Shown here: positions 1,528 to 21,073 of the stretch, in pieces
How positions within the stretch are numbered: position 1 is the stretch's first letter
Layout of the letters: each line of letters starts with the position of its first letter
DNA from: a virus
Length of the DNA: 21,073 nucleotides
Reading direction: 5' to 3' (one strand)
Virus record (IMG/VR): IMGVR_UViG_3300036864_000123
Location: 1 to 21,073 of that record
The notes under the pieces: generated by a model
What the model was told of the DNA's origin: nothing
What the model saw: the letters and a program-made list of their open reading frames with translations, nothing else
The model's database searches: none
Translations under genes and position numbers: made by a program

Positions 1528-3300
1528 GTGGCGCGGCTCGGACGCAGGCAACCCAACCGGCCCATCGCCTACTCGCCGTCGACGTCGACGAAGTACCCGC
1601 CCGGGTCTTACCAGACGATCACCGGCCGGACCGCAACCGTTGCGGAGACCGCGTCGGGCACGTCGATCACCGGGACACTGCCGACAGACCGTCAGACCGG
1701 CGACTACGTCGTCGCGCACTTCTCCATGAGCTGCACGGTCGCGCAATTCACCGGCCCGGGCGGCTCCTGGGTACAGATCGTCGCGCCGACGGTCAACAGC
1801 ACCAGCGAGATCGTCGCCGTGTACGGCATGTTCACCCCCGGCTCGGCGCCAGTCGGCACCAGCTCGGCCGCGGCGGGTCGGCATACGTGCCTCATGCAGG
1901 CCTGGTCGGGGGTGGATCCGACCACCCCGATCGACGTGGCGGCGGTCCTGACGTCGGGGACGCTGCCGCTGGCGCTGACCGGTGTGGCGACGGTGACGGC
2001 AGGCGCGCTGCTGCTATCCGGCACCACAGGTGACTTCAATAGCACGTTTACGTGGACGTTCCCGGCGTCGATGACGCCGGTGGCGAATCAGGGGCTCAAC
2101 GCTGGCCGGGCTGCGGCGCTGGCGCAGGAGACCATCGCCGTCGCGGGTGCGACCGGCACCCGGACCTGGACGGCGTCGACGCTGCAGGCGTGCGTCGGCT
2201 ACACCATCGCGCTGCGCCCCGCTCCGGCCGGCGGGCCCAGCACTATCAACGGCACGGCGACCCTGGCGGGTGCGGGCGCCGTCACGGCGACGGCGACGCA
2301 GGGCGCGGGCGCCACCCCGACGGGTGCGGGCGCTCTCACCGCGACCGCGACGCAGAATGCCGGTGCGTCTCTCGCCGGCGCCGGATCGCTTGCGGCTACC
2401 GGGCAGGTCATCGTCCCGGGTTCGGCGACGCTCACCGGTGCGGGGACGCTCACCGCGGCCGCGGCCGGTGCGGTGCAGGGCACCGCCACCCTCGCGGGTG
2501 CGGGCGTTCTCACCGCCGTCGTGACGCAGATCGTCACCGCCACACCTACCGGTGCGGGCGCCGTCTCGGCGACTGTCCGGCAGGGTGCGAGCGCGAGCCC
2601 GACCGGTGCCGGTGCGCTGACGGCGTCGGTGGTGCAGCAGGCCACAGCTACCCTGGCGGGCGCCGGGACGCTGACCGCGAACGCGGGCGGATCCGCCACC
2701 GGAACCGCATCCCCGACGGGTGCGGGTGTGCTCACGGCGACCGCCGTGCAGGTCGTCACCGCCGCGATCAACGGCGCTGGCGCTGTCACGGCGAACGCCG
2801 TCCAGCAGGCGAGCGCGTCACCGGCAGGCGCCGGGACGCTCACCGCTGCGGTCGTCCAGCGCGTCACCGCCACCCTGACCGGTGCGGGTGCGCTCACCGC
2901 GAGTGCGCAGGGCACCACCGCCGGCACGGCGACCCTGGCGGGCGCGGGCGCCGTCTCGGCCACGGCCACCGTCACCCTCCGCGCGGGCGCCGCACTGACC
3001 GGTGCGGGCACCGTCTCGGCAGCCGGCGCGATCGCCGGCACCGCGAGCCTGACCGGCGCGGGCGCGCTCAGCGCCAACGTCCGGCAGCAGGCCACCGCCG
3101 TCATCACCGGCGCCGGAACGGTGGTTGCCACCGCCGGGTTCACCCTGACCGCAACCGCCGTCATCACCGGCGCGGGCACGGTCGTGGCGACCGGCCGCAC
3201 CAAGTGGACGTTCCGCCCCAACACGGGCACGGAAACGCGTCCCGACTCCGGCCGCACCACGCGACCGGTCGGCACCCCGGCAGTCACCTACCGCCCCTGA
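1528..3300 (+). CDS. Repeat-containing virion fibre/decoration-type protein, 590 aa
   Basis: GTG start with GGAGG 7 nt upstream. Residues 1-240 form a predicted beta-sandwich resembling the 246-aa protein encoded two genes upstream. Residues about 242-556 are roughly 17 tandem repeats of 17-21 residues built on 'xATATLxGAGxLTATxxQ', with 'GAG' almost invariant. The last 34 residues are Arg/Thr/Pro-rich. There is no signal peptide or membrane helix. The repeat composition (Ala, Thr, Gly, Val only) suggests a stacked beta structure or extended fibre. In tailed phages such proteins are fibres, head fibres or surface decorations that touch cells or glycans. The gene lies upstream of the head-closure gene, where tail fibres are not usual, so a head-attached fibre is possible. 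Long ORFs in the other frames across the repeats are shadows. Confidence 0.75.
   Translation: MARLGRRQPNRPIAYSPSTSTKYPPGSYQTITGRTATVAETASGTSITGTLPTDRQTGDYVVAHFSMSCTVAQFTGPGGSWVQIVAPTVNSTSEIVAVYGMFTPGSAPVGTSSAAAGRHTCLMQAWSGVDPTTPIDVAAVLTSGTLPLALTGVATVTAGALLLSGTTGDFNSTFTWTFPASMTPVANQGLNAGRAAALAQETIAVAGATGTRTWTASTLQACVGYTIALRPAPAGGPSTINGTATLAGAGAVTATATQGAGATPTGAGALTATATQNAGASLAGAGSLAATGQVIVPGSATLTGAGTLTAAAAGAVQGTATLAGAGVLTAVVTQIVTATPTGAGAVSATVRQGASASPTGAGALTASVVQQATATLAGAGTLTANAGGSATGTASPTGAGVLTATAVQVVTAAINGAGAVTANAVQQASASPAGAGTLTAAVVQRVTATLTGAGALTASAQGTTAGTATLAGAGAVSATATVTLRAGAALTGAGTVSAAGAIAGTASLTGAGALSANVRQQATAVITGAGTVVATAGFTLTATAVITGAGTVVATGRTKWTFRPNTGTETRPDSGRTTRPVGTPAVTYRP
2251..3195 (+). 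repeat. Tandem 'GAG' peptide repeats (about 17 units of 51-63 bp)
   Basis: In-frame tandem repeats inside the 590-aa protein. Units end in variants of GTG/CTC-ACC-GCG-type codons after a conserved Gly-Ala-Gly core. Most units are 17-18 residues; every third to fifth unit is lengthened by 2-4 residues (for example before 'GTATLAGAG'). DNA similarity between units is high but not perfect, with many silent third-base changes. This suggests old duplications plus selection on the peptide rather than very recent expansion. Copy number could vary by slippage or recombination. Confidence 0.85.
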
Positions 3301-3910: not shown

Positions 3911-5398
3911 ATGGTCCGCAGACTGCTTGCGGTGTTGTTGACGGCGACGCTCGCCGTACTCGGCTTCGCAGCCCCGGCGTACGCGGACACCGTCCAGTCG
4001 TCCTGCCTGAACACGTCATACGTGGACGGCAGCACCACCAACACCAAGAAGACCAACTACGGCTCGTACGTCGACCTCAACATGGCGGGCACGGTCAAGA
4101 TCGCCTACCTGGAGTGCGTCGTGTCCGGCATCCCCGCCGGCGCCACCGTCACCGGCGCCACCCTCGACGTGTTCTCCCGGTCCGTCAACGGCAACCACAC
4201 CGTCCGCGCGCACACCGTCGCCACCGCCTGGACGGAGAATACGCTGACCTGGAACAATCGGCCCATCCCCGACACGGCGATCCTGTCGCAGGCCAACGGC
4301 AACCTGGTCGCCGGCTCGGGTGAATGGGTGAACCTCGCCGCGCCCAACGTGACCGGCAACGGAACCTACCGGTACGCGCTCGACGTCGACGTGACCGGCA
4401 CCCAGGCGTACGCATCCGACGACTACACCACCGATATCACCCGCCGCCCGCGGGTGACCGTCACCTACACCCCGGGCGTGGTCGCCCCGGTCGCGTCGTT
4501 CACCGCCACCCCGACCGGCGGGACGGCGCCGCTGGCGGTGCAGTTCACGGACACCTCGACGAACACGCCCACCGGGTGGGCGTGGACGTTCGGGGACGGC
4601 GGCACCTCGACGGAGCAGAACCCGTCGCACACGTATGCCGCCGCCGGCACCTACACGGTGACGTTGACCGCGAGCAACGCGGGCGGGTCGGACGCTAGCG
4701 ACCCGCAGACCATCACTGTCACGGAGCCGCCGACCGGGCCGGTGCCGACCGTCCCGCCGGGCACCGTCGTACCGACGACCCTGGCGTTCCAGGACGAGTT
4801 CGACGGCACCGCCGTGGACACCTCCAAGTGGACGGTCACCGACGGGTGGTCGGTCAACAACGTGACGACCCGGGCGGCGAACGTCACCGAGTCGGGCGGC
4901 CTGCTGCACATCCAGCTCGCCGACGAGAACGGCACCACCACGGGCGGGCACATGTTCACCGACTACGGCGCCGGCCGCTACCAGCTGCCGGTGGGCGGGT
5001 TCACCGAGGCGCGGGTGTACTTCCCGGGTGACCCCAACTGGGAGGCCGTCAACTGGCCGGCATGGTGGTCGTCCGGCCCGAACTGGCCGGCCGCCGGTGA
5101 GCTGGACATCGCGGAGGAGTCCGGCGGCGTCCTGACGATCAACTACCATTCGCCGACCGTCAACACCGGCATCAACCCGCCCGGCACGTACGGCGACGCG
5201 TTCCACGTCTTCGGCGCGTACCGTAAGGCCACCTCGGTGGACTTCTACTGGGACGGCGTCCTCGTCTGGACCGTCGCGACCGCCGACAACGGGCAGGGCC
5301 AGGTGCTGATCCTCAACGTCGGCAAGCGCAGCTCCGTCGCGCCTACTCTCGGCTCTGCTGGGGCGATGCTCGTGGACTGGGTACGGGCCTGGCAGTAG
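3911..5398 (+). CDS. Secreted DNRLRE-PKD-GH16 glycoside hydrolase, 495 aa
   Basis: ATG with an AGGTAGGG Shine-Dalgarno-like stretch upstream. Residues 1-25 are a classical Sec signal peptide (VRR, hydrophobic core, Ala-Tyr-Ala cleavage site before Asp26). Residues about 27-188 resemble a DNRLRE cell-surface beta domain (including 'TAWTENTLTWNNRP' and the ending 'RRPRVTVTYT'). Residues about 190-272 are a PKD domain with 'WTFGDG' at 225-230. Residues about 291-495 are a GH16 domain starting 'LAFQDEFDGT', with the catalytic motif E397-L-D399-I-A-E402 of the E-x-D-x-x-E type (nucleophile and acid/base glutamates). GH16 enzymes cleave beta-1,3/1,4-glucans, agars or related polysaccharides; the substrate cannot be read from the sequence. 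It is odd to find an exported enzyme within virion genes. It may be secreted by the host to clear glucan or extracellular matrix. Confidence 0.88.
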   Translation: MVRRLLAVLLTATLAVLGFAAPAYADTVQSSCLNTSYVDGSTTNTKKTNYGSYVDLNMAGTVKIAYLECVVSGIPAGATVTGATLDVFSRSVNGNHTVRAHTVATAWTENTLTWNNRPIPDTAILSQANGNLVAGSGEWVNLAAPNVTGNGTYRYALDVDVTGTQAYASDDYTTDITRRPRVTVTYTPGVVAPVASFTATPTGGTAPLAVQFTDTSTNTPTGWAWTFGDGGTSTEQNPSHTYAAAGTYTVTLTASNAGGSDASDPQTITVTEPPTGPVPTVPPGTVVPTTLAFQDEFDGTAVDTSKWTVTDGWSVNNVTTRAANVTESGGLLHIQLADENGTTTGGHMFTDYGAGRYQLPVGGFTEARVYFPGDPNWEAVNWPAWWSSGPNWPAAGELDIAEESGGVLTINYHSPTVNTGINPPGTYGDAFHVFGAYRKATSVDFYWDGVLVWTVATADNGQGQVLILNVGKRSSVAPTLGSAGAMLVDWVRAWQ

Positions 5399-5444
5399 CC
5401 GTATGGCTACGAGATCAGGCTTCGGATAACGGACGGGAGGCGCG

Positions 5445-5834
5445 ATGTCGATCGAGACCGCCCTCGCCCGCGGCCGGGCAGCAGCTGAAGCTCTACAGGT
5501 CGACGCCTGCGTGATCAAGCGCAGGACCGGCGAGACCACCAGCGGCGGCGTCATCACCCCGACCTGGTCGACGCTCTACACCGGGAAATGCCGGATCCAG
5601 ACGCGGCAGCTGGAGGGTCAGGGCCGCGACGTCGGCGAGGCGTATGTGGTGTTGGAACGCCGCGAGATCCAGCTGCCGATCACCGCGACCGGTCTTCAGG
5701 AAGGCGACCAAGCAACGATCACCGCGTCGGCGCTGGATCCGGACCTGGTGGGTCGGGTGTACACGATTCGCACGGTGACGTCGAAGACGCACCTGACCAG
5801 CCGCCGCGCCGAGATCATCGAGGTGACGTCGTAA
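5445..5834 (+). CDS. Head closure / head-tail connector protein (DUF6093-like), 129 aa
   Basis: ATG with GGGAGG 4 nt upstream. The product begins with a helix (residues 1-18), then a beta barrel with 'DACVIKRRTGETTSGGVITPTW' type layout, a 'YTGKCRIQTR' strand and an ending 'RVYTIRTVTSKTHLTSRRAEI'. This pattern matches the small actinophage connector proteins of the DUF6093 type, which close the portal after DNA packaging and take part in head-tail joining. Length is typical. The TAA stop overlaps the next ATG, and the next two genes are the usual gp10-like and tail-terminator proteins, so synteny supports the call. Confidence 0.78.
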   Translation: MSIETALARGRAAAEALQVDACVIKRRTGETTSGGVITPTWSTLYTGKCRIQTRQLEGQGRDVGEAYVVLERREIQLPITATGLQEGDQATITASALDPDLVGRVYTIRTVTSKTHLTSRRAEIIEVTS

Positions 5835-6223: not shown

Positions 6224-6624
6224 TCGACGAACACGCGGCCGCGGTGCTGGCGTTGCTGAATGCGGCGATCACGACACCGCGGAAGGTGTTCGACGGGAAG
6301 GTCGACGCGAACACCGATCCGAGCGTCAACCCGTACATCCTCGTCTACTTCGACTCGAACGACCCGGAGTTCGACAAAGAGGCCAACGCGTGGCGGTTCG
6401 AGTTGACCGCCACGTGCCACTGCGTGGGCGGTAATGCGCAGGCGGCTCGGCAGATGGCGGACCTGGCGCGGACTGCGCTGACGGCGGTGCGGCCGACGGT
6501 CACAGGCCGGTCGTGTTTCCCGATCACGCGGGAGCCGGGCACGCCGCCGCAGCGCGACGAATCCACCGGCGTGCTGGTCATGGACCAGATCGACCAGTAC
6601 GTGTTGCGCAGCCTGCCCGGCTGA
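6220..6624 (+). CDS. Tail terminator protein, 134 aa
   Basis: GTG start overlaps the previous TGA (GTGA). The order connector, gp10-like, then a roughly 135-aa protein before the tail tube gene is the standard position of the tail terminator (lambda gpU / minor capsid-type). The sequence has an N-terminal helix, 'NPYILVYFDS' strand, a 'WRFELTATCHCVGGNAQAARQMADLARTAL' style strand-helix core and a 'MDQIDQYVLRS' terminal strand, matching the alpha/beta fold of that family. The terminator caps the tail tube at its final length and binds the head connector. Function is inferred from fold pattern and synteny. Confidence 0.75.
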   Translation: MIDEHAAAVLALLNAAITTPRKVFDGKVDANTDPSVNPYILVYFDSNDPEFDKEANAWRFELTATCHCVGGNAQAARQMADLARTALTAVRPTVTGRSCFPITREPGTPPQRDESTGVLVMDQIDQYVLRSLPG

Positions 6625-6653
6625 TTCTCACCACAACCGAAAGGACGCGCCGC

Positions 6654-6989
6654 ATGACGCTCCAGGTATCCCAGGCGGTCATCCCGGCTGGCACTACGCC
6701 GTCGGCGCTGACGCCGGCAGCGTCCGACACGATTGCCGCGGGCAGCTTCGGCCCGAATGGTCTCTATGCCCGGGTCATCACGACCGGCACCGCCACAACC
6801 GTCAGTGTTCAGGACCCGAACATCACCGTCCAGGGCAATCCGGCGACGGTCACTGGAGTCGTCTGCCCGTCCACCGGCGTACGCATGATCTTCATCCCGG
6901 TCTATGCGATCAACCAATCCACCGGCGTCGCAACCGTCTTGTTCTCGGGCGCGCTGACCGGCGTCACCTACGAGTTGTACAGGGCCTAG
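6654..6989 (+). CDS. Small beta-rich virion-associated protein, 111 aa
   Basis: ATG with AAAGGA about 8 nt upstream. An in-frame upstream extension exists but covers the terminator gene and is not coding-like. The product is Thr/Val/Gly-rich and all-beta by eye, with no charged clusters, membrane helix or signal peptide. A strand pair 'RVITTGTATTVSVQDPN' and the ending 'GALTGVTYELYRA' suggest a compact barrel. It sits between the tail terminator and the tail tube gene. In related actinophages this place often holds unnamed small structural proteins. Decoration of head or tail tube is possible. Confidence 0.6.
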   Translation: MTLQVSQAVIPAGTTPSALTPAASDTIAAGSFGPNGLYARVITTGTATTVSVQDPNITVQGNPATVTGVVCPSTGVRMIFIPVYAINQSTGVATVLFSGALTGVTYELYRA

Positions 6990-7003
6990 GAGGGGCTGCC
7001 CGC

Positions 7004-7336
7004 ATGACTGAAGCCAAGAAGTACTGGCTGACCGACGGCCAGGGTGACTTTGCTGTCGTGGCTAGCGCCGAGGAACGCGACCGCTGGTTGCCGCTCGGCT
7101 GGTCAGTCACCGACGAGCCCACCGACGGCTGGGTGCACATCTGGCGCGACGGCATCGAGCAGCCCGGCCGGGTGCCGGTCACCGCGCTGGCCGACCTTTG
7201 GGGCCCGCGCGGATGGGTCGCCGGCCCGCCGCCGGAAGGCACGCACCCGTTCGCCCCGCAGCCCTCCGCCAAAGCGCCGGCGGAGTCCAAGACCGAGTCG
7301 AAGCCCGCCGCCGGCGGCAGCGCGAAGGAGAAGTAG
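7004..7336 (+). CDS. Small phage protein with Pro/Ala/Lys-rich tail, 110 aa
   Basis: ATG with GGAGGGG about 7 nt upstream. Residues 1-80 form a small Trp-rich folded region ('YWLTDGQGDFAVV', 'WVHIWRDG', 'WGPRGWV'). The rest is low-complexity Pro/Ala/Ser/Lys ('ESKTESKPAAGGSAKEK'). The folded part reads like a short domain that checks or binds a partner; I do not recognise the family. It lies directly before the major tail protein (3 nt gap after its stop), so a tail-assembly accessory role is likely, for instance a tail tube partner or chaperone. Confidence 0.6.
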   Translation: MTEAKKYWLTDGQGDFAVVASAEERDRWLPLGWSVTDEPTDGWVHIWRDGIEQPGRVPVTALADLWGPRGWVAGPPPEGTHPFAPQPSAKAPAESKTESKPAAGGSAKEK

Positions 7337-7339
7337 ACG

Positions 7340-7825
7340 ATGGCCGACATCATCGGCGACGGCAAGGAACGATGGGACATCGTCACCTCCATCGCGAACA
7401 TCGCGGCGCCCACCGCGGCGGAGCTCAACGCCGGCGTGCGTATCTCGCAGTGGATGACCAAGGACGGCGCCACGGGGTTCGTCGCGGACACCGCGGACGC
7501 GCCGACCAGCTCGAAGGAGAGTACGTTCCAGACGGCGGTCAACGGCATGATCAGCCTGAGCAACCCGCGGTTCCGGCTCAAGCGGCAGACGCCGCTCGGC
7601 TCGGACGCGGCGTTCAATGCGATGCCGACCGACGGCACCGGATTCGCTGTCCGGCGTAACTCCAAGACGGCGACCAGCGCGCACGCCACAGGTGACCTGG
7701 TCGACGTCTTCCCGGTGCAGTTCTCGCAGAAGGCCAAGGTCGACCAGGCCGATAACATGCCGGAGCTGTACGAGGTCCCGGTGAAGATCACCGCTCAGCC
7801 GAAGTGGGACGTCGCCGTCGTCTGA
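7340..7825 (+). CDS. Major tail (tube) protein, 161 aa
   Basis: ATG with AAGGAG 9 nt upstream. The sequence has the N-terminal helix 'TSIANIAAPTAAELNAG' commonly found in actinophage tail tube subunits, followed by 'ISQWMTKDGATGF' and mixed beta strands with a final 'YEVPVKITAQPKWDVAVV'. The tail tube protein polymerises as stacked hexamer rings around the tape measure. Support also comes from position: it is directly followed by an intrinsic terminator, which is usual after the highly expressed tube gene, and then by the frameshifting chaperone and tape measure genes. Confidence 0.82.
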   Translation: MADIIGDGKERWDIVTSIANIAAPTAAELNAGVRISQWMTKDGATGFVADTADAPTSSKESTFQTAVNGMISLSNPRFRLKRQTPLGSDAAFNAMPTDGTGFAVRRNSKTATSAHATGDLVDVFPVQFSQKAKVDQADNMPELYEVPVKITAQPKWDVAVV

Positions 7826-7844
7826 TCCGCAACCAATCTCAAGC

Positions 7845-7866
7845 AACCGCCTATGGGCGGTTTTTT
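7845..7866 (+). terminator. Intrinsic terminator after major tail gene
   Basis: Seven-bp stem AACCGCC / GGCGGTT with a TATG loop, ending in a run of T residues, 20 nt after the tail tube stop codon. It is the only convincing stem-plus-T-run terminator in the late gene run. It would lower transcription of the chaperone and tape measure genes relative to the tube gene, matching the stoichiometry needed. Confidence 0.85.
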
Positions 7867-7867
7867 C

Positions 7868-7910
7868 GTGCGCGGGCCCGGTTCTCCCTCCCGAGACCGG
7901 GCCCGCGCAC
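7868..7910 (+). promoter_or_regulatory. Perfect 15-bp hairpin between tail tube and chaperone genes
   Basis: GTGCGCGGGCCCGGT at 7868-7882 pairs perfectly with 7896-7910 around a 13-nt pyrimidine-rich loop. It starts 2 nt after the terminator T-run and lies 6 nt before the Shine-Dalgarno of the next reading frame. There is no T-run after it, so it is not a classical terminator. It may protect the downstream RNA 5' end, act as an RNase III-type processing site, or affect translation of the leader ORF. Roles are inferred. Confidence 0.75.
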
Positions 7911-7932
7911 CCCTCGGGAGGAACGGAAGGCC

Positions 7933-8007
7933 ATGAGAGAGATCAAGGTCCGACTGATCGCTGCCGTTGCGCCGTGGACTCGCTGCCTGAAGGCGATCAG
8001 CGAGTGA
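7933..8007 (+). CDS. 24-aa leader ORF before tail chaperone
   Basis: ATG preceded by GGAGG (7917-7921) and GAAGG (7926-7930), encoding MREIKVRLIAAVAPWTRCLK plus AISE. Its TGA overlaps the chaperone ATG (TGATG). The chaperone start has only a weak AAGG 13 nt upstream, so its translation probably depends on ribosomes finishing this ORF. No function is known for the peptide. It could be a translational leader only, or a remnant of an older chaperone N-terminus. An alternative GTG at 7974 would give the chaperone 11 extra residues and make this ORF irrelevant. Confidence 0.55.
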   Translation: MREIKVRLIAAVAPWTRCLKAISE

Positions 8008-14731: not shown

Positions 14732-15760
14732 ATGACACAGTCCCCCGAGTATCCGGACCTGCGCTGGATGCCGCCCGCCAGCTGGACGAACGCGAACCGG
14801 ACGAGCGTGCAGCTGATCGTCATCCACACCACCGAGGGCAGCGAAGGCCCGAGCTCGGCGGAGGACGGCGCCGCGTACGACCAGCGCCGCACCGACGGCA
14901 CTAGCACGCACTTCTTCCACGACTCCGACTCGACCGTCCAGTGTGTGCGCACCGAGGACATCGCGCACGCCGCCCGGCATGAAGGGAACCTGCGCGGCAT
15001 CCAGCACGAGCTGTGCGGCAGCGCCTACCAGGGCAGCGTCGGCTGGGCCGATTCGGTCAGTCAGGGCACGCTGCGGCAGGCGGCCCGGCAGTGCGCCCGG
15101 GACGCGAAGAAGTGGGGCATCCCGGTGCGGAAGCTCACCGTCGCCCAGGTCGCCGACGGGGTGAAGGGCTTCTGCGGGCATGTCGAGATCACCTACGCGT
15201 TCCCGCAGGACAACGGCACGCATACTGATCCCGGTCCGACGTTTCCGTGGGCCGACTTCCTGGACATGGTCCAGACTGAACTGGAGGTAGGCGGCATGGC
15301 AGAAGTCGATCTGACCGATGCGGCGGTACAGAAGATCGCCAGCAAGATCAGTGCGGACCTGAACAACACGACATCGGGCATCGCCCTGGGCACTGTCGCC
15401 CGTAGCCGCGCCGCCGTGCAGGACTTCTTCGCGGACGCGTTCCACGCCGCGAAGAAGAACCCCGATAGCAGCCTGGGTGACAGCGTCTACCAAGCGGCCA
15501 GCACGGGTGAGCAGCAGGTGATGCGCTACGCCAGGGACATCGTGCAAGGAACTGTCGGCGGACCGGTCAGCCAGGCCGACCTCGTCGCGGCCGTCACCGC
15601 GGCGAAGGATGAGACCCTGGCGGCTGTCGCGAATGTCGACGAGGAAGTGTGGGCGAAGGTGCCCGACCCGAACATCACGGTCGCGGAGAAGGCCGACCTG
15701 CTGCGGGCCGTGCTCGGCGACGACGCGGCTGCGGTCGGTGCGCTGCTCGCCGCGGGCTGA
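14732..15760 (+). CDS. Endolysin, N-acetylmuramoyl-L-alanine amidase (Amidase_2), 342 aa
   Basis: ATG preceded by GAAGGG. Residues about 20-185 form an Amidase_2/PGRP-type domain: 'LIVIHTTEG' with H32, 'STHFFHDSDSTVQCV', 'GFCGHVEIT' with H150, and 'THTDPGPTFPW' with H164 and D166. By comparison with T7 lysozyme, H32, H150 and D166 are the expected zinc ligands. It cuts the bond between muramic acid and the stem peptide to free progeny phage. Residues about 195-340 are a helical, charged C-terminal part ('VDLTDAAVQKIASKI', 'EKADLLRAVLGDD') that is probably for dimerisation or wall targeting; I see no LysM or SH3 domain. There is no signal peptide, so release needs a holin. Confidence 0.92.
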   Translation: MTQSPEYPDLRWMPPASWTNANRTSVQLIVIHTTEGSEGPSSAEDGAAYDQRRTDGTSTHFFHDSDSTVQCVRTEDIAHAARHEGNLRGIQHELCGSAYQGSVGWADSVSQGTLRQAARQCARDAKKWGIPVRKLTVAQVADGVKGFCGHVEITYAFPQDNGTHTDPGPTFPWADFLDMVQTELEVGGMAEVDLTDAAVQKIASKISADLNNTTSGIALGTVARSRAAVQDFFADAFHAAKKNPDSSLGDSVYQAASTGEQQVMRYARDIVQGTVGGPVSQADLVAAVTAAKDETLAAVANVDEEVWAKVPDPNITVAEKADLLRAVLGDDAAAVGALLAAG

Positions 15761-15790: not shown

Positions 15791-15985
15791 ATGACACTGT
15801 TCCAGCTGAAGGCCATCGTCATGCTGATCGTGACAGCAGTGTGGGTGGTCTACGTCCTCGCCGCCGTCCTGCGAGGCAAGGATGTGGGCCTGGAGTGGAT
15901 AGGCCTGCCCGGCGCGATCTTCTTCGCCATGTTCGGACAGATCAGGAGAAGGAACGGTAATGGCGGCAACGGATCGGCCCCGTAA
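15791..15985 (+). CDS. Small two-helix holin-like protein, 64 aa
   Basis: ATG start with AAGGAG 12 nt upstream. Two membrane helices (about residues 8-27 and 35-51) with a short charged turn and a basic, Gly/Asn-rich tail fit a class II holin. It lies directly after the endolysin gene. Its third-codon positions are GC-rich. A competing frame from GTG 15786 has better spacing to AAGGAG, but encodes an Arg/His-rich peptide without structure and is rejected. The end overlaps the next gene by 26 nt. Confidence 0.75.
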   Translation: MTLFQLKAIVMLIVTAVWVVYVLAAVLRGKDVGLEWIGLPGAIFFAMFGQIRRRNGNGGNGSAP

Positions 15986-16523
15986 CCCCGGCGAGCCGGG
16001 TCATCCCGGCAAGCCCGGCGGCCACGGCGAAGCCACCGGCCGCGGCGGTGAGGGCGGTTCCGGCGGTGCTGGCGGCCGCGGCGGCGGTGACAGCGGCGAA
16101 CCCGGTGGGCGCGGCGGTGAGGGCGGCCCGGGTGGCGCGGGCAGAAGCTACGACGGCGATGACAGGGTCAGCCGGTGGCTCGACTGGACGGTGCGGATCG
16201 TCGCGGTCGTGAGCCTGCTGCTGACCGGGGTGATAGCCGGGAAGGTGTTCAGGGCGTCGCAGTGCCAGGGCCGGTTCAACGAGCGGGCGACGGCCATCGC
16301 CCCGGCGCTTAACCAGGAACGGGAGACTCAACGGGCGACCAACCAGGCGGAATCCCAACTGTGGCTGGCGGTCAGGCCTGGTGATCAGTCGCCTGAGCAG
16401 CGCAAGAGGCTGCAGGCGTTGTTCACGGCCTATCAGGCGACGCTGACCGCGCGGAACGAAGCGCAGGTGGAAGCCGACCAGGCGCGTGCCGCTCATCCCA
16501 TGCCGACGTGCAGCCCACAATGA
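15960..16523 (+). CDS. Collagen-like Gly-X-Y membrane protein in the lysis region, 187 aa
   Basis: ATG inside the end of the holin gene. Residues 11-63 are about 17 Gly-X-Y triplets (GEP, GHP, GKP, GGH...) broken at two single residues, then a charged linker. One membrane helix follows at about 77-96, then a C-terminal helical part (about 105-178) rich in Gln, Glu, Ala and Arg that looks like a coiled coil. Orientation is probably with the Gly-rich part inside the cell or the coil outside, but the positive-inside rule gives no clear answer. Its place after endolysin and holin suggests a lysis accessory (holin partner or spanin-like). Collagen-like triplets in a phage membrane protein are unusual. 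Low-complexity Gly-rich DNA could also be a recombination product. Confidence 0.7.
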   Translation: MAATDRPRNPGEPGHPGKPGGHGEATGRGGEGGSGGAGGRGGGDSGEPGGRGGEGGPGGAGRSYDGDDRVSRWLDWTVRIVAVVSLLLTGVIAGKVFRASQCQGRFNERATAIAPALNQERETQRATNQAESQLWLAVRPGDQSPEQRKRLQALFTAYQATLTARNEAQVEADQARAAHPMPTCSPQ

Positions 16524-16819
16524 TGAACGCGACTCGGGCGATGGGCCGAACATGCTGGTGTCACCATCACCGCGAGCAGGTGCCACTTGAGGTTCATCAC
16601 GTTTTTCCCGTGGGTGCCGGTGGTCCGAACGTGGCCGCGAACCGGGTCACGATCTGCGCCAACGCCCACAGCTCAGTTCATGATCTTTTGCTGAAGATGC
16701 TGAAGGCGGACACCGTCAGGGTGCCGTGGCTGGTGCGGCGCCTGTACGGCCGGAAGGTCCGGCGGCTCGCGGTGGCCGGCTTCCAGGCCATCAAGACCAA
16801 GACCGTCGTCACGCCGTGA
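16520..16819 (+). CDS. Small HNH endonuclease-like protein, 99 aa
   Basis: The ATG overlaps the previous stop (ATGA); an in-frame GTG 12 nt upstream is possible. The core matches an HNH motif: V-H26-H27-V-F-P, G-A-G-G-P-N, N41, then C46-x3-H50-x3-H54. A CWC pair at residues 12-14 may contribute to a zinc site. HNH proteins nick or cut DNA. In many siphophages a small HNH protein works with terminase at cos sites; here it stands after lysis genes, which could mean the packaging region of a circular map is close. The C-terminal half is basic and probably binds DNA. It lacks partner domains. Confidence 0.75.
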   Translation: MMNATRAMGRTCWCHHHREQVPLEVHHVFPVGAGGPNVAANRVTICANAHSSVHDLLLKMLKADTVRVPWLVRRLYGRKVRRLAVAGFQAIKTKTVVTP

Positions 16820-16883: not shown

Positions 16884-17075
16884 ATGACCAAACTCGAGCA
16901 AGAACTGCTCGACGCACTGGCCGACTGCGTGATCAAGGCGACCGAGTATGGCGATCAGGACGGCGGTTTCGTCGCGGCCTACATCATGCCCACCGGGCCG
17001 ATCCACCGCGCCATCCCGCTACTGGAACGCCACGGCATCACCGTTCGTCCCGGATTCGATGGTCGGACCAGATGA
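16884..17075 (+). CDS. Small protein, 63 aa, unknown function
   Basis: ATG with GAAGGG about 4 nt upstream, after a 64-nt gap containing a GC palindrome CCGGCCGGCCGG. The peptide has a helical N-terminus 'TKLEQELLDALADCVIKATE', then 'GGFVAAYIMPTGPIHRAIPL' and a short end. It is soluble, with a single cysteine and no recognised motif. The stop overlaps the ATG of the next membrane gene (ATGA), implying coupled expression. It may be a regulatory partner of the downstream membrane protein, but this is guesswork. Confidence 0.55.
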   Translation: MTKLEQELLDALADCVIKATEYGDQDGGFVAAYIMPTGPIHRAIPLLERHGITVRPGFDGRTR

Positions 17076-17650
17076 CCAGGAAGACCGTCCTGTCGATCGC
17101 GTTTCTGTCGATCACCGGCGTCGCCGTCGGCATGGAGGTCTGGTTCGCGGTCGACCATGACTCGGCTACCGTCCCTTGGACTAACCTGCTGGCCACCTAC
17201 GTCCCGGCACCGATCACGTTCGCGGCTATCGCTCTATTGCTGTCCTGGCTTCCCGGGCACATGATCGAGGCCTACGCCCGGAGGGGAAAACACATGGTCA
17301 CGACCACTACCATCCCCGCGACGCCCGACCCGGGCGCGGCGAAGGAACCGCTGATCACGCCGACTATCGTTGTGGCCGCATTCGCGGCTCTCGCTGACAT
17401 GCTCGTGGCGTACGGGGTTCCGATGACCGAGAAGCAGATGATCACCACCCTGGCCTTCATCAGCGTGGTGTCAGCCATAGCCCTGACGCTGTGGTCACGC
17501 CGCAAAGCATTCGCCCCGGCCACGGTGCGGGCGATGGTGGTGGAGGCGGCCGCGTCGGGTCAGGTGAAGACGGAGGCTACGGTGGTGCCCGCCGAGTCGC
17601 AGGGCCTGTCCGAGCCGAGGAATCCCGGCACAGGCGAGCGGCTCGCGTGA
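17072..17650 (+). CDS. Four-helix membrane protein, holin-like C-terminal half, 192 aa
   Basis: ATG at the overlap with the upstream stop; the frame is also open upstream, but that part is out of context. Membrane helices lie at about residues 5-25, 40-60, 97-115 and 123-141. The second half, starting at M75, resembles actinophage holins: a polar N-terminus, two helices with a short 'MTEKQM' turn, then 'WSRRK'. M75 (ATG 17294) has GGAGGGG 7 nt upstream, a near-ideal internal start, so a 118-residue product is likely as well. The gene may be a fusion of two small membrane genes, or a dual-start holin/antiholin. The tail is Glu/Pro-rich. Confidence 0.68.
   Translation: MTRKTVLSIAFLSITGVAVGMEVWFAVDHDSATVPWTNLLATYVPAPITFAAIALLLSWLPGHMIEAYARRGKHMVTTTTIPATPDPGAAKEPLITPTIVVAAFAALADMLVAYGVPMTEKQMITTLAFISVVSAIALTLWSRRKAFAPATVRAMVVEAAASGQVKTEATVVPAESQGLSEPRNPGTGERLA
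17280..17296 (+). promoter_or_regulatory. Strong internal Shine-Dalgarno and ATG in membrane gene
   Basis: GGAGGGG (17280-17286) lies 7 nt before the in-frame ATG at 17294, stronger than the signal at the annotated start. It would give a product with only the last two membrane helices. Confidence 0.6.
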
Positions 17651-20683: not shown

Positions 20684-21073
20684 TCACGCCACCGCCGGCA
20701 GACCGGCCACCGCGGTGCGCTTACGCGTCGTCCTGGTCGCCACGTACCGCTGCGTCGTGGCGACCGACGCGTGACCCAGCAGCTCCTGCACCACCCGCAT
20801 GTCCTCGCCGGACGCCTCGTACGCGGCGGTCCCGAACCAACGCCGCAGCTTGTGCATGCTCAACTCCGGCTGCCCCAGCACCTTCTGCAACTGCCAGTTC
20901 CCCTGATGCGAAACCTGCTGCCGGGTCAGCCCGCCGGCGACCAGATTGACCGGACGACCGCGGACGTCATGGACAGGCTCAAACACCGGAGGCAACTGCA
21001 CCGACTGCCAGATCAACGGATGCGTGGGCACAATCCGGGACTTGCCGCCCTTGCCCAATATCCACAACTCGTC
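20684..21073 (-). CDS. int: Tyrosine integrase, C-terminal catalytic part (5' partial)
   Basis: The frame is open to the right edge, so the N-terminal arm-binding and core-binding parts and the first catalytic Arg lie outside. Visible are the beta-hairpin Lys in 'GKGGKSRIVPTHP', box II in 'MHKLRRWFGTAAYEA' (H-x-x-R), 'VVQELLGHASVATTQRYVA' with the GH and the nucleophile Tyr, and a basic tail 'TRTTRKRTAVAGL'. This is the phage integrase family that joins phage and host att sites. The transcript runs toward the small membrane gene. The attachment site is not identified; candidates are discussed in the findings. Confidence 0.93.
   Translation of the reverse strand, partial: DELWILGKGGKSRIVPTHPLIWQSVQLPPVFEPVHDVRGRPVNLVAGGLTRQQVSHQGNWQLQKVLGQPELSMHKLRRWFGTAAYEASGEDMRVVQELLGHASVATTQRYVATRTTRKRTAVAGLPAVA

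Follow-up and report, generated by a model that had tools for sequence, protein, structure and literature searches.

A conserved Gly-X-Y tail on a putative lysis membrane protein encoded beside a phage endolysin

Introduction

How several small membrane proteins coordinate lysis in phages of thick-walled, high-GC bacteria is an open question. In the mycobacteriophages Girr and NormanBulbieJr, lysis was reported to be controlled by a pair of proteins encoded after the lysins, LysF1a with two transmembrane (TM) segments and LysF1b with one, and deletion of the latter caused severe lysis defects, small plaques and altered timing; in the part of that report drawn on here, both partners of such a pair matter, and the mechanism is not given (PMC13056207). 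The same part describes LysZ of the Corynebacterium glutamicum phages CL31 and Cog as a 177-residue protein with one TM segment and a proposed N-in/C-out orientation, said to act on lipid-anchored glycans. One-TM lysis proteins of Gordonia phages were described as N-out/C-in in the portion of PMC9671378 used here, and the word 'collagen' occurs nowhere in the main text of that paper. No title on a collagen-like or glycine-rich lysis membrane protein was found in the open-licence PMC literature. Among glycine-rich folds, polyproline-II bundles are known from a protein consisting of 46% glycine and from T-even phages, whose spikes carry them at the tip (PMC8409303, in the part considered here).

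Here we analyse an IMG/VR virus fragment (IMGVR_UViG_3300036864_000123; 21,073 bases, GC 68%), the whole of which is referred to below as the window. One of its genes encodes a 187-residue membrane protein with an N-terminal run of Gly-X-Y triplets. Three related phages carry this protein, and two of them are nearly identical in the gene. The tail is genuine, under selection and unusual, and the membrane protein that bears it is probably a lysis protein; this would be a case of a collagen-period repeat outside phage fibres.

Results

Gene neighbourhood and host

The endolysin of the window matched 578 phage records, whose hosts, judged by organism name, were nearly all actinobacterial (Mycobacterium 277, Propionibacterium 188, Cutibacterium 45, Gordonia 28, Rhodococcus 24, and others); on these grounds we infer an actinobacterial host. 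A phage integrase fragment (20684-21073, minus strand; 6.1e-11), cut by the contig end, suggests a temperate phage. Elsewhere in the window, a 590-residue protein with many repeats centred on Gly-Ala-Gly is encoded at 1528-3300 (plus strand); it has no significant Pfam match (best FANCAA, 0.15). The genes around the membrane protein are as follows.

14732-15760, plus strand: endolysin, N-acetylmuramoyl-L-alanine amidase (Pfam Amidase_2, 5.5e-15; PHROG endolysin phrog_12609, 2.7e-32)
15791-15985, plus strand: upstream partner of 64 residues with two hydrophobic segments and a 13-residue tail, RRRNGNGGNGSAP; 81% identical in contig L003
15960-16523, plus strand: the gene under study, an open reading frame for a 187-residue single-pass membrane protein with an N-terminal Gly-X-Y tail (one TM segment, 17 triplets)
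16523-16819, plus strand: HNH endonuclease gene (Pfam HNH, 2.2e-05)
17075-17650, plus strand: further membrane protein, a weak candidate for a holin (PHROG holin phrog_9752, E = 0.035)

A preliminary description of this DNA had assigned the gene at 15960-16523 to a lysis region, and this placement is borne out, as the Amidase_2 endolysin lies directly before the 2-TM gene which overlaps it. The overlap, of 26 nt (23 in L003), is present in all three members. The arrangement is thus of the LysF1a/LysF1b type, with a 2-TM gene followed by an overlapping 1-TM gene beside an endolysin. The counterpart of the 17075-17650 protein in a second related contig, L002, has four hydrophobic segments.

The 64-residue 2-TM gene was found in L002 and L003, the same two contigs that carry the 187-residue protein, and nowhere else searched. 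In L003 the gene before the pair (4937-5803) differs from the window endolysin, and its product had no match in Pfam, PHROG or the phage records; its last approximately 45 residues are alike by eye, and this sequence suggests an endolysin with a swapped catalytic part. Since the pair is kept in L003 despite the different upstream gene, the 2-TM and 1-TM genes seem to move as a unit. Directly after the triplet-bearing gene, and before an HNH-like reading frame, L003 carries a caspase-domain gene (6497-7423; Peptidase_C14, 2.2e-23).

The Gly-X-Y tail

The coordinates and reading frame given for 15960-16523 in the preliminary description proved exact, as did its count of about 17 triplets with two single-residue breaks: we counted 17 (5 + 5 + 7), interrupted at Thr26 and Gly42. 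The tail reads GEP GHP GKP GGH GEA / T / GRG GEG GSG GAG GRG / G / GDS GEP GGR GGE GGP GGA GRS. Its parts lie as follows.

15990-16148, plus strand: Gly-X-Y tail, residues 11-63 (triplet count; pLDDT below 50; no Pfam family at E<=10)
16035-16037, plus strand: first single-residue break, Thr26
16083-16085, plus strand: second single-residue break, Gly42

When the 53 residues were shuffled 20,000 times with their composition preserved and two breaks were allowed, no shuffle reached 17 triplets (mean 7.4, maximum 16). When no break was allowed, the longest run was 7, an ordinary value matched by 2,939 of the 20,000 shuffles. The tail is not an artefact of the choice of start codon, because within the first 110 codons the frame offers no other start than GTGs that lie at the TM segment or in it, at codon 78 or beyond in the window and L002 and at codon 77 in L003. 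A long antisense reading frame across the tail was considered and rejected; the frames open in both the window and L003 keep just 32 of 53 and 31 of 52 residues, where the sense frame keeps 50 of 53.

The term 'collagen-like', used in the preliminary description, is true of the period and not of the family. Glycine stands at every third residue through the 17 triplets and two breaks; however, glycine also occupies 10 of the 34 X and Y positions, proline occurs five times, always at Y and never at X, and the Pfam Collagen profile (PF01391) is silent. No Pfam family matched the tails of the window and L003 proteins at E<=10, whereas the annotated collagen-like protein of phage PHL141N00, taken as positive control, reached 4.5e-23 with that profile. 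Such a glycine-heavy make-up lacking proline at X is expected to give a weak triple helix. The closest solved structure by sequence was a collagen peptide (2klw_B), a weak match with E = 5.9. The tail looks like collagen only in a loose sense, and filing it as collagen was rejected on the Pfam result.

Membrane helix, C-terminal part and topology

In keeping with the one membrane helix and coiled coil proposed earlier, hydropathy gave one TM segment, and an AlphaFold2 model gave a long helix and a second helix after it. Such a build, with one TM segment and a long helical putative ectodomain, is close to that of 1-TM lysis factors already described. The model was built from three sequences, with 10-residue block means of 81-96 over residues 71-180, and it placed nearly all of residues 1-62 below a pLDDT of 50, so that the tail is predicted to be disordered. 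The features beyond the tail are these.

16152-16370, plus strand: long helix, residues 65-137, comprising the TM segment and the first arm of the putative ectodomain (AlphaFold2, block means 81-95 from residue 71)
16185-16253, plus strand: transmembrane helix, approximately residues 76-98 (hydropathy, best 19-mer at residue 78, mean 2.03; inside the predicted helix 65-137)
16263-16265, plus strand: Cys102, just past the TM segment, conserved in all three members
16392-16493, plus strand: second helix, residues 145-178, the other arm of the putative ectodomain, which would return along the first (AlphaFold2, block means 86-96)
16509-16511, plus strand: Cys184, near the C-terminus, conserved in all three members

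In an antiparallel hairpin of these two helices, Cys102 could meet Cys184, which lies six residues after the second helix; this pairing is deduced from the lengths of the modelled helices. The 75-residue N-terminal part contains 9 basic and 11 acidic residues, and export of a charged tail of this kind in the absence of a signal is unlikely. We favour an N-in/C-out topology because a disulfide fits an outside location and because the long charged N-tail is unlikely to be exported unaided; the Gly-X-Y tail would then probably be cytoplasmic. On the other hand, the charges flanking the TM segment (3+/4- on the N side, 3+/1- on the C side) are ambiguous and alone would slightly favour C-in.

Relatives and selection on the tail

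Two relatives of the 187-residue protein were found, both in IMG/VR contigs: L002, 97% identical, and L003 (IMGVR_UViG_3300042825_000004), 81% identical. The Gly-X-Y triplets are present in both. Homologues lacking triplets at the same place, which the preliminary description had named as grounds for giving up its proposal, did not turn up; of 18 other contigs that encode a related endolysin, however, 7 have at the corresponding position a protein free of triplets, and the tail is therefore not needed for such cassettes in general.

Within the protein, conservation is highest in the tail. Between the window and L003, 3 of 53 residues changed in the tail and 28 of 112 in residues 76-187. At the codon level, residues 11-63 show 18 synonymous and 3 non-synonymous differences (dN 0.041, dS 0.592), and residues 76-187 show 21 and 28 (dN 0.169, dS 0.431). 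The tail differs from the rest of the protein (Fisher p = 0.0013) as well as from the neutral expectation (binomial p of about 1e-6 to 1e-7, for a non-synonymous fraction of 0.67-0.71), and 19 of its 23 base differences fall in the third codon position. The triplet tail is thus kept as protein by purifying selection, a result which is in effect that of one comparison, window against L003, since L002 is nearly identical to the window and there are three members in all.

Wider searches returned no convincing relative of the 187-residue protein among 50,697 phage records, and none among 83 stretches returned from genome contigs. In 396 actinobacterial genomes there were six matches in five genomes, by eye all due to chance; the best of them was to what we take to be a secreted CAP-like protein (L087). 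When the TM segment and C-terminal part were compared with the 50,697 phage records by tblastn, the one match was to a human-faecal Bacteriophage sp. (E = 8), and no mycobacteriophage appeared. Foldseek searches against BFVD and the PDB gave nothing at E<=0.001, generic helical matches alone being returned.

Two further leads were dropped. The families phrog_3073 (0.056) and phrog_5930 (0.026) were not significant for the window protein and absent for L003; phrog_3073 was found in none of 296 genomes, an uninformative figure as the control was silent too. Brevibacterium phage Cantare, which came up at rank 24, was set aside because the first 30,000 of its 90,743 bases did not decide the matter.

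Gene pairs of the same build in other contigs

A related endolysin was present in 19 viral contigs, one of which is the L002 contig; the 18 others were scanned for the pair. Seven of them (L072, L076, L077, L078, L080, L082 and L084) carry a 2-TM gene followed by a 1-TM gene at a spacing of -4 to +11 nt, with two conserved cysteines in the C-terminal part. The other 11 showed a different arrangement, or no pair on the plus strand within approximately 2.2 kb. Three of the 2-TM proteins, used as queries, yielded 12 contigs, each with the pair; as three contigs are common to both sets, the distinct pair-bearing contigs number 16, and the pairs of L096 and L097 are identical.

In the seven 1-TM counterparts measured, 9-20 residues precede the TM segment. 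In all 16 contigs the C-terminal tail of the 2-TM protein is, by eye, rich in Pro, Ser, Gly or Arg. Both kinds of cassette thus bear a low-complexity segment at the gene joint, on different partners. The L072 counterpart is modelled with helices at residues 4-65 and 71-86; its cysteines are residues 53, 89 and, within the TM segment, 19. In L102 and L103 the 1-TM counterpart, starting at 3261, has just 78 residues; the stretch from the TM segment to the first ectodomain cysteine is shortened, and both cysteines are kept, 36 residues apart.

Comparison of profiles with hhalign gave, for the window group against the counterparts, a probability of 7.7, in the TM segment only, for the 1-TM proteins (six counterparts aligned) and of 0.2 for the 2-TM proteins (seven aligned). 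The likeness of the counterparts to the window pair is one of position and build. Those counterpart 1-TM and 2-TM proteins that were tried had no relatives in the phage records.

One of these contigs, L077 (IMGVR_UViG_3300046792_000331), encodes at 7001-7942 an amidase endolysin with a peptidoglycan-binding-like domain which ends in a collagen-like (KGDPGP) repeat. It counts 12 triplets with two breaks allowed, and this tail alone matches Pfam Collagen at 3.6e-05, below the curated cut-off. The L077 endolysin might be oligomeric.

Discussion

On balance, we regard the 187-residue protein as the 1-TM partner, encoded second, in a holin-like pair of lysis proteins. It would have its helical C-terminal part outside the cell and its Gly-X-Y tail inside. 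The small 2-TM protein and the 1-TM protein would be made as a translationally coupled pair. The tail would stay in the cytoplasm, one helix would cross the membrane, and the approximately 90 residues beyond it would turn back on themselves in a helical hairpin, with a disulfide between Cys102 and Cys184 to close it. Together with its 2-TM partner, the protein may then make bursting of the host timely or complete, its target being either the membrane or nearby envelope material on the outer side. The tail itself would most likely be an extended glycine-rich segment, either polyproline-II-like or disordered, setting the spacing or the self-association of the complex under the membrane.

This lysis-pair interpretation is supported by the endolysin directly upstream and by the gene overlap in all three members. 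The lengths of the two modelled helices would put both cysteines at matching ends, and 16 further contigs have a pair of the same build, among which L072 is predicted to fold likewise. By analogy, the defects caused by LysF1b deletion (PMC13056207, in the part used here) would also be consistent with it. Against it stand the lack of a homologue of known function, the non-significant PHROG matches, the three members and three model sequences on which selection and structure rest, the flanking charges, the profile comparison, in which the pair and its counterparts stay unconnected, and, insofar as the analogy holds, the N-out/C-in orientation predicted for LysF1b in the same part of PMC13056207. 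In view of that orientation the protein was not filed as LysF1b.

One alternative, which we consider somewhat unlikely, is a spanin-like or LysZ-like envelope factor whose target, once the endolysin has acted, would be the outer layers of the actinobacterial envelope. The size and proposed N-in/C-out topology are near those of LysZ as described in the part of PMC13056207 used here, and the modelled two-helix ectodomain would suit such a role; a sequence link to spanins was, however, not found, the Rz-like spanin profile (phrog_312) being reached at E = 0.87 by the L003 protein alone and by the window protein not at all, and filing as a spanin was rejected for that reason. It is improbable that the protein has no part in lysis and is a membrane protein for another task (e.g. 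superinfection exclusion) or a virion component encoded near the tail and lysis genes; it has no functional homologue, and phage collagen-like proteins can adjoin lysis genes without a lysis role, as the one just before the endolysin of the Cutibacterium acnes phage PHL141N00, but the TM segment, the position after the endolysin and the constant overlap with the 2-TM gene argue otherwise.

A separate problem is the state of the tail, which is most likely extended or disordered; a stable collagen triple helix is possible and less likely. The tail may act simply as a flexible spacer of low complexity, for which the precise sequence is of little importance. Such a spacer, which we hold possible though doubtful, would agree with the low model confidence and with the unlike, Pro/Ser/Gly-rich tail found on the other partner in the 16 counterpart cassettes, but the conservation of the tail relative to the rest of the protein exceeds what a mere spacer needs.

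Less likely again is a glycine-rich polyproline-II (polyglycine II) bundle of the type seen in snow flea antifreeze protein, Obg and the T-even phage tip adhesin, whether its strands come from one chain or from several. The tail is 53% glycine (28 of 53 residues), has many GG-X steps, and a break closes each of its first two 15-residue blocks; the bundles of glycine-rich proteins and T-even spikes (PMC8409303, in the part considered) provide a precedent. Nevertheless, the sequence would suffice for just three strands or so (15 + 15 + 21 residues), the model confidence is low, and there is no solved relative by sequence.

We think it rather improbable that the tails build a true collagen triple helix, which would make the protein a membrane-anchored trimer, such as the trimeric holin partner suggested in the preliminary description. 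The number of triplets with just two single-residue breaks lies far above that of the shuffles, tethering in the membrane would favour assembly, and typical collagen-like repeats do visit such cassettes, as at the end of the L077 endolysin. The silence of Pfam Collagen at E<=10 next to the strong response of the control, together with the glycines at X and Y and the absence of proline from X, argues against it. The pLDDT below 50 also counts against a trimer, but this monomer model is unable to show one and cannot decide between a collagen trimer and a polyproline-II bundle.

A more general scheme may be put forward as a conjecture, one that we would not expect to hold. Actinophage lysis pairs would need a cytoplasmic low-complexity tail at the gene joint, and either partner could supply it: in most phages considered here the 2-TM protein, by a Pro/Ser/Gly-rich C-tail, and in this lineage the 1-TM protein, by its Gly-X-Y N-tail. 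That N-tail would have turned into a repeat whose copies associate beneath the membrane, in a collagen-like or polyglycine-II manner, and this association would control the clustering and triggering of lysis. The conserved Gly-X-Y tail is a discrete, deletable part, and self-association under the membrane is a testable prediction.

The window pair may finally be compared with the systems already described, among which LysF1a/LysF1b, LysZ and the type III holin T of phage T4 are taken from the part of PMC13056207 used here. The LysF1 pair is alike in having a 2-TM and then a 1-TM protein after the lysin genes, overlapping genes and an extended helix on the 1-TM partner. LysF1b differs in its 124 residues, predicted N-out/C-in orientation and highly charged cytoplasmic helix, whereas the window protein has features of its own in the 63-residue glycine-rich N-terminal tail, the two conserved cysteines and the predicted two-helix C-terminal part. 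LysZ, likened by description, shares the single TM segment and a similar size, and its proposed N-in/C-out topology is the one favoured here; a glycine-rich tail is not mentioned in that part of its description. Holin T, also likened by description, has one TM segment, an N-in/C-out orientation and its bulk outside; it differs in being a 218-residue protein with a globular periplasmic domain. Phage collagen-like proteins (PHL141N00_19, PF01391) have glycine at every third residue too, but PHL141N00_19 counts 43 triplets with two breaks allowed and matches Pfam, in contrast to the 17 glycine-heavy triplets of the window tail, which do not. The 16 IMG/VR cassettes resemble the window in gene order, close or overlapping genes, one TM segment and two conserved cysteines, with a long helix and a second helix predicted in L072, and they differ in the short N-tail of the 1-TM protein (9-20 residues in the seven measured) and in the low-complexity tail borne by the 2-TM partner.
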